Positions 44,440 to 52,600 of a stretch of 64,000 nt of DNA are shown piece by piece; within the stretch, counting starts at the first letter, position 1, and every line of letters starts with the position of its first letter. This DNA comes from Dehalococcoides mccartyi. GTDB taxonomy: Bacteria > Chloroflexota > Dehalococcoidia > UBA2979. Below the pieces are notes generated by a model that ran no database searches, was not told where the DNA came from, and saw only the letters and a list, made by a program, of their open reading frames with translations. Where the stretch lies: contig CAMBFG010000003.1 in the NCBI GenBank assembly GCA_945865925.1, positions 1-64,000 on the forward strand, read 5' to 3'. Both the position numbers and the translations under genes were made by a program.

Positions 44440-44859
44440 CTACAGCGGCGGCGTGACGAACTCACATCGAGGCCCCACCGCCTGCGCCAGCCGGCGATCG
44501 AGGGTCGCGAGGCCGGACCCCAACTCCTCGGCGAGCGCGACGTACCACGCGTCATATGGGGTGACGTTCTGACGGAGTTCCCACACCCGCCATGCGAGGG
44601 GCTCGTAGGGGTACAGCACGACGGTCAAACGGAGCAGGTTCTCGTGAGCCAACGCTGCCGAGTCCGGAGGCATGAGCCCACTCAACTCTGAACGACGCAG
44701 CGCACTCGTGACCTCCGCCAGCATGTGATGAGGAGATCGGAGCTCATTGGTGCGGAGCAGATGTCTGGCCCACTCGCCCTCACGATCGAGATCCATCAGC
44801 GCGCTGACAACAACAGACGCATCGATCACAAGGGTCACCGACGGTCGGCGTCTCGCCAC
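44440..44859 (-). CDS. PIN-domain toxin (VapC-like)
   Basis: LVIDASVVVSALMDLDREGEWA...VTPYDAWYVALAEELGSGLATLDRRLA. Confidence 0.88.
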   Translation of the reverse strand: MARRRPSVTLVIDASVVVSALMDLDREGEWARHLLRTNELRSPHHMLAEVTSALRRSELSGLMPPDSAALAHENLLRLTVVLYPYEPLAWRVWELRQNVTPYDAWYVALAEELGSGLATLDRRLAQAVGPRCEFVTPPL

Positions 44860-45068
44860 GCAAGAATGGTCTCAGCGCTGACATGAATGCCGTCGCGCTT
44901 CACGCGCTCTTCGACCTGCTTCACCCACGTGGCCCTGTCGGGCTTGCTGGCCATGTTGATCAGTTCGCCGCGCAGGTACTCCTGCAGCGAACGGCCACTA
45001 CCCGCCGCCCGCGCAGCGAGTTCGTTGCGGGTCTCTTCGGGGACGTTGCGGATGGTGATGGATGGCAT
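44835..45068 (-). CDS. Ribbon-helix-helix antitoxin (FitA/VapB-like)
   Basis: MPSITIRNVPEETRNELAARAAGSGRSLQEYLRGELINMA; overlaps the downstream PIN gene. Confidence 0.85.
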   Translation of the reverse strand: MPSITIRNVPEETRNELAARAAGSGRSLQEYLRGELINMASKPDRATWVKQVEERVKRDGIHVSAETILAWRDADRR

Positions 45069-45633: not shown

Positions 45634-45768
45634 GTGAAGCGTACCTGGCAGCCGAAACGCCTTTCCCGTCAGCGGAAACTCGGGTTCCGAGCCCGCATGC
45701 AGACGTCTAACGGACGAGATGTGATCGCTCGCCGGCGCGCCCACGGCCGCAAGCGGTTGTCGGTCTGA
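45634..45768 (+). CDS. rpmH: 50S ribosomal protein L34
   Basis: GTG start: [44 protein letters not shown]; immediately upstream of rnpA; absent from the ORF track. Confidence 0.96.
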
Positions 45769-45841: not shown

Positions 45842-46252
45842 ATGCGGGACCCTGGCGACTCATCCGGCCACGCTGGCCGTACGCCACAGGCGACGCCGCC
45901 GGACAGACTGCGCCGCCGTTCGGAGTTCGCCCTCGTCATGCGTGAGGGTCGCCGGGCACGCCATCCGCTGCTCCACCTGGTGGTGCGCCGTTCGGGCGTG
46001 CCGGGGACACGGATCGGATTCTCGGTCGGAAAACGGCTCGGCGGCGCTGTGGTGCGCAATCAGGTGAAGCGGCGGCTGCGCATGATCGTCCGTGGGTTCT
46101 CGTGGCGCGACGGCCTCGACATCGTCGTCCTCGCCCAACCACCTGCTGCCATCGCGAGCTTCGAGGCGCTGACGGGCGCTCTGGCGCGTGCCGGGGAGCA
46201 GGCGCGGGCCCTCGAACCCTCAACCGTTACCGACGGGGCAGGTCGAGCTTGA
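45842..46252 (+). CDS. rnpA: Ribonuclease P protein component
   Basis: [27 protein letters not shown]...[26 protein letters not shown]. Confidence 0.95.
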
Positions 46253-46530
46253 TAACCGCTGTCACCTCCCACACCGACTCGGGGAACCTGAACGGCGGGC
46301 AACGCCTCGCGCTGCACCTCATCCGAGGCTATCAGCGCATCATTTCACCGAGCCTCGGCGCCCGTTGCCGCTTCGCACCGTCCTGCTCGCACTACGCGGC
46401 GGAGGCGATCGAAGTCCACGGGGTAATCCGAGGGGTGCTAATGGGTGCTCGCCGCCTGGCGCGCTGCCGCCCAGGAGGCGGCTCTGGATTCGACTCCGTG
46501 CCACCTCGAATCTCTGGGCGGGCCTCGTGA
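46249..46530 (+). CDS. yidD: Membrane protein insertion efficiency factor YidD
   Basis: [69 protein letters not shown] start overlaps the rnpA stop. Confidence 0.93.
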
Positions 46531-46569
46531 GCGGGATACGTGCGCGGATTTCGCACACGACGCGCTCGA

Positions 46570-46585
46570 TGTTTCACGTGAAACA
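46570..46585. promoter_or_regulatory. parS centromere site
   Basis: Perfect palindrome TGTTTCACGTGAAACA, identical to the canonical ParB binding site; parAB is about 4-5 kb downstream. Confidence 0.93.
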
Positions 46586-46637
46586 TATCCACAAGTTCAT
46601 CCACAACCGGGGTCAAACAGCCGCTCCTTGTGGACAG
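46585..46637. promoter_or_regulatory. Cluster of DnaA-box-like 9-mers (possible oriC element)
   Basis: ATATCCACA (46585-46593), TCATCCACA (46597-46605), and CTGTCCACA on the minus strand (46629-46637), each one mismatch from TTATCCACA/TTGTCCACA. Confidence 0.5.
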
Positions 46638-46646
46638 AATGAGCAG

Positions 46647-47783
46647 TTGGGGGCCTCTCCGGTCTCCCGGCGACCTCGATTCTCCCGCCTGGTGGCCCTC
46701 GCCGCGTTCGCGTCACTCATCCTCGCGGGGTGTGGCGGCGTCGCGGAGGCAGCCGGATGGTCCGGCCCGGTACGGCTGGCTGACGGCAGCATCCTCGTCC
46801 AGGTGAAACCGGGCGAGGTTCGCGCCGTCGATCCCACCTCGGGCGATGAGCGCTGGCACTTCCCGAACTCGGTGAAGGACGAAAAGTCCTCGAAGCGCGT
46901 CTCCAAGCCCGTGAAGGGCACGTTCTACGCCGCCCCGGTGCTCGACAAGGACCGCATCTACCTCGTCTCTTACGAGGGCCATGTCGCCCGTGTCGACCGC
47001 GGCGAAGGTGGCGCGATCGGCAACCCGTGGACGGCCGAACTCGGCGCGAACGTGGTCGCCACACCGATCTTGAGCGGTGGACGCCTTTACGTCGCCACTG
47101 AGGGCGGCGAGATCGTCGTAGTGGGTACCGAGGATGGCGCCATCGTTTCGCGCTACCGGGCGGGCTCCGGACGCATCTGGGGTGGCGCCGTGGTGTCAGG
47201 CGAAAACCTCATCACTCCGAATCTGGACGAGCGCGCGATCTACGCGATCCGGCTCTCCGATGGCCAGCAGGCCTGGCGCACTGACGATGCCGCATCGGTC
47301 TCCGACGTGACCTCGGCGGGCCCGAATCTGCTCATCGGTGGCATCGACGCCTCACTTCGAGCGATCGACGCCGCTGGCGGCGGGGTCCGCTGGCGCTTCG
47401 AGACCGACGGCTGGGTCGCTGGTGCACCGCTGGTGGCCGGCGACACGATCTACGTCGGGAGCATGGGCGGCAGCGTCTACGCGCTGACCCTTGATGGACA
47501 GCAGCGCCAGAAATACACCCTCGACGCAGAGAAGGCCGAGTTCCGTGCGACGCCAGTGATTGCCAGCGGGCACCTGATCGCGGTCTCACGGAGGGGCGTG
47601 ATCGTTGGCCTGAACCCATCCACGCTCGAACAACAGTGGCGTCAGGAGATCCCCGACGTGCGGATCGACGCGACGCCGCTGGTCGTGGACGGTCAGGTCT
47701 TCCTGATCACGACGAAGCACGCCTTGATCCGTGTGGACGCCGCAACCGGCGCCCACCGGTTGATCAGCGCACCGAGCGAGTAG
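46647..47783 (+). CDS. PQQ-like beta-propeller (BamB-like) lipoprotein
   Basis: Lipobox-like LVALAAFASLILAGCGG; repeated GGRLYVATEGGEIVVVGTEDGAIV / DTIYVGSMGGSVYALTLDGQQ blades; start (TTG) uncertain. Confidence 0.85.
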   Translation: MGASPVSRRPRFSRLVALAAFASLILAGCGGVAEAAGWSGPVRLADGSILVQVKPGEVRAVDPTSGDERWHFPNSVKDEKSSKRVSKPVKGTFYAAPVLDKDRIYLVSYEGHVARVDRGEGGAIGNPWTAELGANVVATPILSGGRLYVATEGGEIVVVGTEDGAIVSRYRAGSGRIWGGAVVSGENLITPNLDERAIYAIRLSDGQQAWRTDDAASVSDVTSAGPNLLIGGIDASLRAIDAAGGGVRWRFETDGWVAGAPLVAGDTIYVGSMGGSVYALTLDGQQRQKYTLDAEKAEFRATPVIASGHLIAVSRRGVIVGLNPSTLEQQWRQEIPDVRIDATPLVVDGQVFLITTKHALIRVDAATGAHRLISAPSE

Positions 47784-47790
47784 GACACAG

Positions 47791-48756
47791 ATGCCGATCG
47801 GCTACGTCTGGCAGACCTTCCTCGAAACGCCGCTCATCAACGTGATGGTGGCGCTGACGGGGATCTGCTTCTCCTCGTACGGCCTCGCAATCCTCGTGTT
47901 CACGGTGATCTCTCGAGTGCTGCTCTTCCCGTTCACGCTGAAGATGCTGAACTCGATGAAGGCACTTCAGACAATTCAGCCGCAGATGCAGGAATTGCAG
48001 AAGAAGTACAGCGACCCGAAACGCCGTCAGGAAGAGACCATGCGTCTCTACAAGGAGTCCGGCGTGAACCCGCTGGGCTGCTTGAGCGGCCAGGTCATCC
48101 AGATGCCGCTGTTCATCGCGCTGTATCAGGTGATCCGCGTCACCCTGGGTGGGTCGCCGGAGAGCATCCTCGACCTGTCGGGGCGTCTGTACGACGTGCC
48201 CTTCATCCAGGACCAGATCCCGCTGTCGCGCATCTTCATCGGCATGGACCTCGGCGCGAACGGCGGGATCCCGCTGCTGGTGCTGGTGTTCATCGCGATG
48301 TGGCTGCAGCAGCGCATCTCGTCGGGCCGCACGGCGACCACGACCGTGCAGAGCGACCAGCAGCGTCAGACCGCCCAGATGATGCAGTGGATGATGCCCG
48401 CTGTATTCTCCTGGTTCGTCCTGTTCTCACCGGCCGGTGTGGGCATCTACTGGTTCGCCAGCACCGTCATCGGCATTGCGTTGCAGTGGGCCTTCGTGGG
48501 CCCGGGTGACTTCACATGGGGATCGCTGGTGCCGAACTTCGCGCGTGCGCGCCTCGGCATGACGCCGCTCCCGGTCACTCCTACACGAGTCCGTCCTAGC
48601 CGACCCGCCGCAGATCGCGGCACGTCCGAAACGGGGAACAACGATGCGAGTAGCGGAAACAAGCGGCCGAACGGTCGACGAAGCGGTGGGGAAGGCGCTG
48701 GCCCAACTCGGCCTGCGCCGGGATCAAGTCGAAATCGACGTCGTCACCGAGGGTAA
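47791..48756 (+). CDS. yidC: Membrane protein insertase YidC/Oxa1
   Basis: YGLAILVFTVISRVLLFPFTLKMLNSMKALQTIQPQMQELQKKYSDPKRRQEETMRLYKESGVNPLGC. Confidence 0.95.
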   Translation: MPIGYVWQTFLETPLINVMVALTGICFSSYGLAILVFTVISRVLLFPFTLKMLNSMKALQTIQPQMQELQKKYSDPKRRQEETMRLYKESGVNPLGCLSGQVIQMPLFIALYQVIRVTLGGSPESILDLSGRLYDVPFIQDQIPLSRIFIGMDLGANGGIPLLVLVFIAMWLQQRISSGRTATTTVQSDQQRQTAQMMQWMMPAVFSWFVLFSPAGVGIYWFASTVIGIALQWAFVGPGDFTWGSLVPNFARARLGMTPLPVTPTRVRPSRPAADRGTSETGNNDASSGNKRPNGRRSGGEGAGPTRPAPGSSRNRRRHRG

Positions 48757-49930
48757 GGCCGGGCGCTTCGGCTTCGGCTCTGAGGACGCGATCGTCCGCG
48801 TCACCGCCCACGAGTCAGTGCTGACCTCCGGCCCATCGCGCGGCCCGCGGCGCTCTGCCCCCGTCCGTCAGCGTCAGCCCGAGGCCGCGGACGTGCTTCC
48901 GCAGCGCGACGAAGACGATGACGACGACGACGTGGATGACGACGACGATGATGACGAGGCACCGCGCGGGTCTGAGGACGGCGAGGCGCCGGCTGCGGAC
49001 GGGGACGCCCCGCGTCGCCGTCGACGTGGCCGCCGAGGTGGCCGTGGCCGCCGACGTGAGGACGACGCTCCGGCTGCGGACGGCGAGCAGCCAGCGGCGG
49101 TTGCCGCCGCTGCCGTGCCTGCCGAGCCGCGCACCGCTGCTCCCTCCCGCGATGACGATGCACCGCGTGCTGGCATGGCGAGCCGCGACGGTCGTGCCCC
49201 CAGCCGAGGCCCGGCCGGTGGCGGTCGAGGGCGATCGAGCGGTGGTGGTGGTGGCGGACGCAACGACCGTGGCGGCGGTGGCCGAGGTGGCCCGCGCGGT
49301 GGTGGTGGCCGGGACTTCCGCGAACCTCGCGAGCCGCGTGAGGCGCGACCGCAGGGGTTCACGGTGCCGCTGGACGAAGAAGTCCGCGTACCGGATGCGC
49401 CGGACGATCTGCCGATCGCGCCGAACACGACTGCTGAGGACGACCTGGACCTCGCGGGCGGCACGCTGCGCGATGTCCTGAACCTCCTCGGCCTGCAGGG
49501 TACGGAGATCAGCGCGCGTGACCCGGAGACCCCGGGCGACGGCGCTGGCCTGATCGCGCAGGTCTTCGATGTCTTCGGTGAGGACGATGTGGCCTCGGAC
49601 GAACTCGGACTGCTGATCGGGCGACGGGGCGAGACGCTCTACCACCTGCAGTACCTGATGAACACGATCGTGGGTCAGCGCCGCGAGAGCGCGCCGGTCT
49701 TCGGCCTGGACATCGAGGGCTACCGGCGCCGCCGTGAGCAGATGCTGGTGGACATGGCGCGAGAGATCGCCGAAGAGGTGCGCGCCAGCGGTGACGTGAT
49801 CACCCTGGAGCCGATGCCGGCGCACGAGCGTCGGATCATCCACCTCACCCTGGAGACCGAGGGTGGCGTGCGCACCGAGAGCGTGGGCTCCGGTGAGAAC
49901 CGCCAGGTCGAGATCCTGCCCGCCGAATAG
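48644..49930 (+). CDS. jag: Jag/KhpB RNA-binding protein (Jag_N, KH, R3H) with long acidic plus RGG-rich insert
   Basis: MRVAETSGRTVDEAVGKALAQLGLRRDQVEIDVVTEGKAGRFGFG; GLLIGRRGETLYHLQYL (KH); MPAHERRIIHLTL (R3H). Confidence 0.93.
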   Translation: MRVAETSGRTVDEAVGKALAQLGLRRDQVEIDVVTEGKAGRFGFGSEDAIVRVTAHESVLTSGPSRGPRRSAPVRQRQPEAADVLPQRDEDDDDDDVDDDDDDDEAPRGSEDGEAPAADGDAPRRRRRGRRGGRGRRREDDAPAADGEQPAAVAAAAVPAEPRTAAPSRDDDAPRAGMASRDGRAPSRGPAGGGRGRSSGGGGGGRNDRGGGGRGGPRGGGGRDFREPREPREARPQGFTVPLDEEVRVPDAPDDLPIAPNTTAEDDLDLAGGTLRDVLNLLGLQGTEISARDPETPGDGAGLIAQVFDVFGEDDVASDELGLLIGRRGETLYHLQYLMNTIVGQRRESAPVFGLDIEGYRRRREQMLVDMAREIAEEVRASGDVITLEPMPAHERRIIHLTLETEGGVRTESVGSGENRQVEILPAE

Positions 49931-50850: not shown

Positions 50851-51693
50851 ATGAGCGTGTGCATCGCTGTGACGAACCAGAAGGGTGGCGTCGGCAAGAC
50901 GACGACCACCGTCTCGCTCGGCGCGTCGCTGGCGGCGCGCGGGCTGCGGGTCCTCATCGTCGACGCCGACCCGCAGGCGAACGCCACGAGCGCCCTCGGC
51001 ATACGCGGTCGCGACGAGGCCGGCCTGTACGCGACGCTGATCGAGGAAGACCCGCTGGAGCGCTCGGTAGAGGCGACCTCGACCCCGAACCTCTGGCTCG
51101 TGCCAACCACGCCGGCGCTCGCGGGCGCCGAGATCGAACTCGTGACGGTGATGGCGCGCGAGTTCCGGATGAAGCGCGCCCTCGAATCCCTCCGCTCGCA
51201 ATACGACATCATCCTGATGGACTGCCCGCCGTCGCTCGGCCTGCTCACGGTGAACGCGCTGGCGGCGGCCGACGAAGTGATCATCCCGGTGCAGGCGGAG
51301 TACTTCGCCCTCGAAGGCCTCGGGCACCTCTCGAAGACCGTCGAGATGATCCGCCGCAACCTCAACCCCCAACTGGCGATCCGCGGGGTGCTGCTGACGA
51401 TGTACGACTCCCGCACGAACCTCGCGCGTGAGGTGGAGCAGGAGGTGCGCACGCACTTCCCGGCGACGTTCCGCACGGTCATCCCTCGGTCAGTGCGGCT
51501 GGCGGAGGCGCCGAGTCACGGCGAACCGATCACGGCGTACGACCCGTCCTCGACAGGTGCGCGTGCGTACGAGGAACTCGCGGACGAACTGATCGGGCGG
51601 CTGCGCGAGCGCGACCTGATCCCGGCCGTCGCGCCGATGCGCCCGCGTGCCGCCGCGGCGACACCGCCCTCGGAGGTCACACATGGCGCGTAA
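50851..51693 (+). CDS. parA: Chromosome partitioning ATPase ParA (Soj)
   Basis: MSVCIAVTNQKGGVGKTTTTVSLGASLAARGLRVLIVDADPQANATSALG. Confidence 0.97.
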   Translation: MSVCIAVTNQKGGVGKTTTTVSLGASLAARGLRVLIVDADPQANATSALGIRGRDEAGLYATLIEEDPLERSVEATSTPNLWLVPTTPALAGAEIELVTVMAREFRMKRALESLRSQYDIILMDCPPSLGLLTVNALAAADEVIIPVQAEYFALEGLGHLSKTVEMIRRNLNPQLAIRGVLLTMYDSRTNLAREVEQEVRTHFPATFRTVIPRSVRLAEAPSHGEPITAYDPSSTGARAYEELADELIGRLRERDLIPAVAPMRPRAAAATPPSEVTHGA

Positions 51694-52600
51694 AGGTGGC
51701 CTGGGCCGTGGACTCGCAGCGCTGATCCCGGACGGCGCACCCGGCGATCCGGAGACGGCACCGCGCGACGAGCGCGTGCCCGCGACCGACGTCGCGATCG
51801 AGGATGTGGTCCCGAACCCGCAGCAGCCGCGTACGTTCATCGATCCCGTGCGGCTCGCGGAACTCGCCGAGTCGATCAAGTTGTACGGCATCATCCAGCC
51901 GCTGCTGGTCACACAGGAACGCGGCCAGGACGGCCAGGTCGTCTACCAACTGATCGCTGGTGAGCGCCGTCTGCGCGCCGCGAAGGCGGCCGGCCTCGAG
52001 CGTGTGCCGGTCACGATCCGGCAGACGACCCCGCAGGAACTCCTCGAAATCGCCATCGTCGAGAACGTCCAGCGCGCCGACCTCAATCCGTTGGAGGAGG
52101 CGGTCGCGTACCAGCGGCTGATCGAGGAGTTCCATCTCACACAGGCGCAGGTCGCGGAGCGGGTCAGCAAGTCTCGCGTCGCCATCGCGAACACGCTGCG
52201 GCTGATGGACCTGCCGGTGGAGGTGCGCGCCTCGATCACGGGTGGCGATATCTCCGAGGGGCACGGGCGGGCGCTGCTCGGGCTCGCGTCGCAGGCGGAC
52301 CGCCTGACCGCATGCGAACGGGTGGTCGCCGAGGGCTTGAACGTGCGCCAGACCGAGCGCATGGTGCGCGAGTGGGGTGGCACCGAGGCGAAGCCCTCGA
52401 AGCCGCGCCAGCCGAAGCCGGACGTACGCGGCCCGGCCGCGGTCACCCAGGGATTCGAGGAGGCGGTGCAGCGCTCCCTCGGCACGAAGGTGACGCTGAA
52501 GCGGAGCCAGACGGGGCGCGGGGCCCTCACGATTCACTTCTACAGCGACGAGGAGCTCACGGGAGTCCTCGAACGGATCCTTGGAAAGGACGCGCTATGA
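51683..52600 (+). CDS. parB: Chromosome partitioning protein ParB (Spo0J)
   Basis: MARKGGLGRGLAALIPDG...PNPQQPRTFIDPVRLAELAESIKLYGIIQPLLV...IAGERRLRAAKAAGLERVPV. Confidence 0.97.
   Translation: MARKGGLGRGLAALIPDGAPGDPETAPRDERVPATDVAIEDVVPNPQQPRTFIDPVRLAELAESIKLYGIIQPLLVTQERGQDGQVVYQLIAGERRLRAAKAAGLERVPVTIRQTTPQELLEIAIVENVQRADLNPLEEAVAYQRLIEEFHLTQAQVAERVSKSRVAIANTLRLMDLPVEVRASITGGDISEGHGRALLGLASQADRLTACERVVAEGLNVRQTERMVREWGGTEAKPSKPRQPKPDVRGPAAVTQGFEEAVQRSLGTKVTLKRSQTGRGALTIHFYSDEELTGVLERILGKDAL

Follow-up and report, generated by a model that had tools for sequence, protein, structure and literature searches.

Gene neighborhood of the parS site

The window analyzed here is a stretch of 64,000 nucleotides (C3:1-64000) from a draft genome of 2.31 Mb in 25 contigs that is estimated to be 92% complete. 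It carries a co-directional run of genes in the order rpmH, rnpA, yidD, a lipoprotein gene, yidC, jag, a pfkB-family gene, parA, and parB. ORFs and Pfam matches bear out the flanks rpmH-rnpA-yidD and yidC-jag-parA-parB described in an earlier, sequence-only reading of this DNA; the names rpmH, rnpA, yidC, and obg (see below) were assigned by eye from sequence. The same reading had found no dnaA upstream of rpmH and had placed a toxin-antitoxin pair and a tRNA there, all of which held, the tRNA being tRNA-Thr(CGT). The pair, a PIN-domain toxin with a FitA-like RHH antitoxin (FitAB/VapBC-like), occupies 44440-45068 between the tRNA and rpmH. The features discussed below are as follows.

45634..45768, plus strand: rpmH, first gene of the run (ORF and protein sequence, named by eye)
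46252..46530, plus strand: yidD (Pfam YidD, E=9.5e-26)
46569..47783, plus strand: PQQ/BamB-like lipoprotein gene (Pfam PQQ_2, E=5e-36; open frame and start survey)
46570..46585, no strand: parS palindrome TGTTTCACGTGAAACA, predicted ParB-CTP loading site, 0 mismatches
46585..46593, plus strand: DnaA-box-like site 1, ATATCCACA (footprint extends to 46594)
46597..46605, plus strand: DnaA-box-like site 2, TCATCCACA (footprint TCCACAAC, 46600-46607)
46629..46637, minus strand: DnaA-box-like site 3, CTGTCCACA (TTGTCCACA in three of five congeners)
47791..48756, plus strand: yidC (by eye and from the sequence-only reading; alignment, with matches in 37 of 40 relatives)
48644..49930, plus strand: jag/khpB (Pfam Jag_N and R3H)
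50851..51693, plus strand: parA (Pfam AAA_31, E=1.6e-60)
51683..52600, plus strand: parB (Pfam HTH_ParB, ParB_N, and ParB_C)

A perfect parS within lipoprotein codons

We counted as chromosomal parS (ParABS) the 16-bp palindrome TGTTNCACGTGAAACA with at most 1 mismatch. The copy at 46570-46585 is perfect, as had been claimed, and no other stretch of the window comes within 3 mismatches of the palindrome; dinucleotide shuffles give an expectation of 0.02 such sites. Two exact and two one-mismatch copies are present genome-wide. The cognate genes parA (from 50851) and parB (from 51683, with a ParB HTH domain) follow 4-5 kb downstream. Chromosomal parS is also expected within the origin-proximal part of the chromosome (∼20%), and this copy lies on the same contig as the dnaA-obg region, a candidate and unproven oriC, at a distance of 104 kb or 4.5% of 2.31 Mb. 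Together with the retention of its position in the family, the perfect match and the nearby parAB support a centromere function as far as sequence can indicate it. The other copies in this genome are at C6:105434, C5:6245, and C4:186264 (0, 1, and 1 mismatches). These three share the flank GAAC[AG]TATGTTTCA, the sequence after parS is common to the C6 and C5 copies, and the C6 copy is close to one of the stronger GC-skew switches.

The interval 46531-46646 had been taken for an intergenic gap, a description that does not survive: the lipoprotein frame crosses it, from either ATG 46569 or GTG 46527, the latter a possible earlier start that overlaps the yidD stop. The palindrome is read in frame as ATG TTT CAC GTG AAA CAT (MFHVKH), and the N terminus encoded across parS and the boxes is MFHVKHIHKFIHN...LILAGC. 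A frame running from FHVK to a lipobox is shared by the window and 29 relatives, in which the position of the lipobox Cys varies widely, between about residues 19 and 58. For L199 and L200, two of the relatives, the parS ATG is the sole common start codon available in frame; members of the window genus have a GTG or ATG 42-45 bp upstream of it as an alternative candidate. A literature text search returned no match for the MFHVK peptide and nothing relevant on parS in connection with a signal peptide, a lipoprotein, and yidC.

In a raw count that includes shared ancestry, parS occurs at this same place in ∼30 genomes. Among more distant families, L255, L259, L262, and L284 have it there out of frame or as multicopy clusters, and in L243 and L253 it precedes yidC by 49 bp. 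One relative (G015) has two copies 54 bp apart (L203, 1501-1570), one perfect and one with 1 mismatch, which the lipoprotein N terminus reads in frame as MFHVKH...TFHVKH. In L255 and L259, parS-like sites form arrays of five to six members that lie ∼1.2-1.6 kb before yidC.

A DnaA-box-like triplet conserved as DNA across the genus

The three TCCACA-type 9-mers reported at 46585, 46597, and (minus strand) 46629 are present, and the first overlaps parS by 1 bp as described. Boxes 2 and 3 start 12 and 44 bp beyond the start of box 1. Measured against TTATCCACA, all are imperfect: boxes 1, 2, and 3 have 1, 1, and 2 mismatches. Across the 2.16 of 2.31 Mb (93%) that was scanned, this is the only locus with at least three TCCACA-core boxes per 60 or 200 bp; in Markov simulations such loci arose in 0 of 12 runs for the 60-bp span, and a single one arose in 2 of 12 for the 200-bp span. 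The triplet is thus beyond chance expectation. The C-terminal motif of the DnaA encoded in this genome, translated by eye, is GGRDHSTV, and the recognition motif of Escherichia coli DnaA is GGRDHTTV, so that the two appear close at the sequence level. Elsewhere in the genome, a divergent pair consisting of TTGTCCACA and a perfect TTATCCACA lies at C8:23416-23439 between two minus-strand genes, overlapped by a doubtful plus-strand ORF and close to the point where the GC skew of this genome switches most strongly.

We compared the site among five congeners, which are few, related, and represented by draft genomes, with well-diverged flanks. From parS to box 3 the alignment is free of gaps, with zero indels. 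All 16 positions of parS are invariant, as are the box cores save for one base in box 1, whose footprint reads ATAYCCACAA; at box 3, TTGTGGACA (46628-46636) is unchanged in 5 of 5. By comparison, the invariant fraction is 23% in the spacer, 11% in the upstream flank, and 0% after box 3. Substitutions around parS and the boxes are spread evenly over the codon positions (54/49/49), without third-position bias, whereas those in the mature domain of the lipoprotein (223/171/623) fall 61% at third positions, which argues that the constraint acts on DNA. By this pattern, the boxes are kept as DNA and not as protein. The length between box 3 and the lipobox Cys varies in the five species only by multiples of 3, so by sequence the reading frame is maintained alongside the selection on DNA. 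Among 45 family genomes searched for parS joined to box 1, the 5 that carry this pattern all belong to the window genus, and the other 40 lack it. The proposed adjacency of parS and DnaA boxes is supported, and the genus footprint strengthens it.

The dnaA locus and the position of oriC

The gene dnaA is on the same contig as the window, at C3:149712-151010, 103 kb downstream; 0.4 kb of intergenic sequence separates it from obg, the next gene. Of the suggestion that dnaA has moved away in this lineage, what stands is its separation from the rpmH-yidC block, which other members of the class also show; the gene has not been lost. The complete genome of Tepidiforma flava, in which ∼463 kb separates the parS cluster from dnaA, indicates that the window is not alone in having this split.

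The dnaA-obg intergenic region contains DnaA-box-like sites, and its 200-bp GC minimum (0.525, 0.13th percentile) is among the lowest in the genome. It has conserved blocks in four congeners, and TTGTGGACAG recurs in it, full-length in 2 of the 4 congeners compared. We scanned 28 dnaA loci of the class, and 23 carry a box of no more than 1 mismatch in the ∼500 bp that follow the dnaA stop; no such 3′ box was found at the loci of G009, G017, G025, G033 (which ends 263 bp past the gene), or G035. In the window genus, every dnaA-adjacent box is imperfect, and dnaA is not preceded by an inverted box pair such as several relatives have. The sites between dnaA and obg, together with the boxes at most dnaA 3′ flanks of the class, make this region the better oriC candidate, and on sequence grounds oriC most likely lies there, ∼104 kb from parS. 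A further relative (G006) has two full-length dnaA genes (C84:1905-3266 and C120:6640-7941), both above the family cutoff, with contamination possible, and dnaA scores far below that cutoff in G012 (C1:153363-154682, 240 bits) and T. flava (765649-766872, 206 bits).

A putative composite ParB/DnaA element

We hypothesize that parS and the three boxes form a composite centromere site that couples the initiator to segregation away from oriC, a reading that we consider about evenly balanced between right and wrong. ParB-CTP clamps would load at 46570-46585, and ParA would work on the ParB complex to bring about chromosome segregation. DnaA on the three TCCACA boxes may gate the loading or movement of ParB, or else ParB may displace DnaA. 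Segregation would thereby be tied to initiator activity, in the manner of the Caulobacter parS and Vibrio rctA/parS2, with the element placed in the low-constraint N-terminal (signal-peptide) codons of the lipoprotein at potentially little cost to the protein. We infer the binding of ParB and of DnaA, the direction of the effect, the phenotype, and the coupling itself.

Precedents resemble the site in part. In Caulobacter crescentus, DnaA binds boxes at parS, allowing the centromere to move while still unreplicated (Mera et al. 2014, reviewed in PMC6399470). The predicted boxes here are likewise in the parS region and apart from those of oriC; unlike in Caulobacter, they overlap or adjoin parS at fixed spacing, belong to a Dehalococcoidia genus, are predictions as DnaA sites, and are embedded in the coding sequence of a lipoprotein, ∼104 kb away from where oriC probably lies. 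At rctA/parS2 of Vibrio cholerae, RctB binds together with ParB2, each next to the other (PMC6399470, PMC3688505). As with the rctA/parS2-B site and RctB 39-mer of chromosome II, the predicted ParB and initiator sites here adjoin and are inside an ORF. The Vibrio initiator, however, is RctB and not DnaA, its site is at the edge of the origin, and its ORF is small, whereas here a conserved gene for a lipoprotein takes that place. Thermus thermophilus, as described in the portion of PMC4409726 drawn on here, has its chromosomal parS inside gidB and oriC downstream of dnaA, and so shares with the window a parS in a coding gene near parAB and an oriC (a candidate one here) downstream of dnaA. Its parS-oriC distance differs, at ∼6 kb, and that portion of the source makes no mention of DnaA boxes at parS. 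In T. flava (NZ_CP115149, L284; of the same class by its place among the matches), parS likewise precedes yidC and is remote from dnaA, but as a cluster of 4 parS-like sites that is not in a long lipoprotein frame.

The main rival to coupling is that DnaA at the triplet regulates the lipoprotein-yidC-jag-parAB run, or that the triplet buffers DnaA, with parS nearby but without a role in segregation. A function in transcription control or DnaA titration fits the footprint nearly as well: the boxes are at the 5′ end of a gene in a co-directional run toward parAB, and a conserved, rigidly spaced triplet confined to one genus would suit an operator. Against this, the site is intragenic within the run and has no evident promoter, and the 1-bp overlap of box 1 and the fixed spacing to parS in all five species suggest that parS matters. 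We regard regulation or titration as rather unlikely. A protein other than DnaA with a TCCACAA-like target might instead bind the triplet, given that TCCACAA is more widely shared among the boxes than is the TT with which the classic box starts and that DnaA binding is a prediction; TCCACA is nonetheless the core of the DnaA box and TTGTGGACAG recurs between dnaA and obg, and we judge such a binder improbable.

The sequence-only reading had suggested that this could be an oriC/centromere junction. Replication in this genus would then start at least partly at the parS/box element, and centromere and origin would have been fused anew away from dnaA. The element has the densest TCCACA cluster in the scanned genome, made up of predicted boxes, and classic origin neighbors, and the deficiencies of the dnaA-adjacent boxes described above would favor it. 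It lacks an AT-rich element, however, with a lowest 200-bp GC of 0.615 (5.6th percentile) compared with 0.525 at dnaA-obg, and as a box cluster it is kept in one genus only, being absent from the other genera searched, while boxes follow dnaA in most of the class and the genus also shows a footprint between dnaA and obg. GC skew, computed from contig stretches covering 93% of bases, is weak overall and in this draft genome a noisy and weak form of evidence; it has no consistent minus-to-plus switch at parS, since with 20-kb arms 17% of genome positions have a larger one and with 40-kb arms 88% do. The largest switches are at ∼28 kb on C8 and ∼98 kb on C6, and skew weakly favors the surroundings of dnaA over the window parS with too much noise to decide between them or to locate oriC. 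An origin at the junction is thus unsupported, and we consider it quite improbable. There is also a published caution in that Ori-Finder proposed TGTTTCACG, half of parS, as a DnaA box in Bradyrhizobiaceae, a case indicating that parS-rich places can be mistaken for origins.

That the boxes are mere codons of the lipoprotein N terminus (IHK, IHN, and CGQ), conserved as protein, is highly improbable: no stop interrupts the frame across the segment in any of the five species, but the even codon-position pattern rejects protein-level conservation as the cause of the footprint, the spacer between boxes diverges freely, and TGT and GGA, each a minor codon among its synonyms, do not vary (minor codons inside parS and box 3 make up, in this genome, 8% [TTT], 13% [AAA], 9% [GGA], and 24% [TGT] of their families).

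Implications

The new point is the genus-level footprint, in which parS and the three box cores hardly vary. Since the boxes are confined to one genus, any coupling would be a local invention and not a general mechanism of Dehalococcoidia. Ties between initiation and segregation are known from very few bacteria. If the composite reading is true, a short, rigid ParB/DnaA element conserved as DNA in five species would represent an independent case of coupling, and its distance from the likely oriC would make it possible to tell coupling apart from origin function. In the wider family, ∼30 genomes have a centromere site that also serves as the N-terminal codons of a gene.
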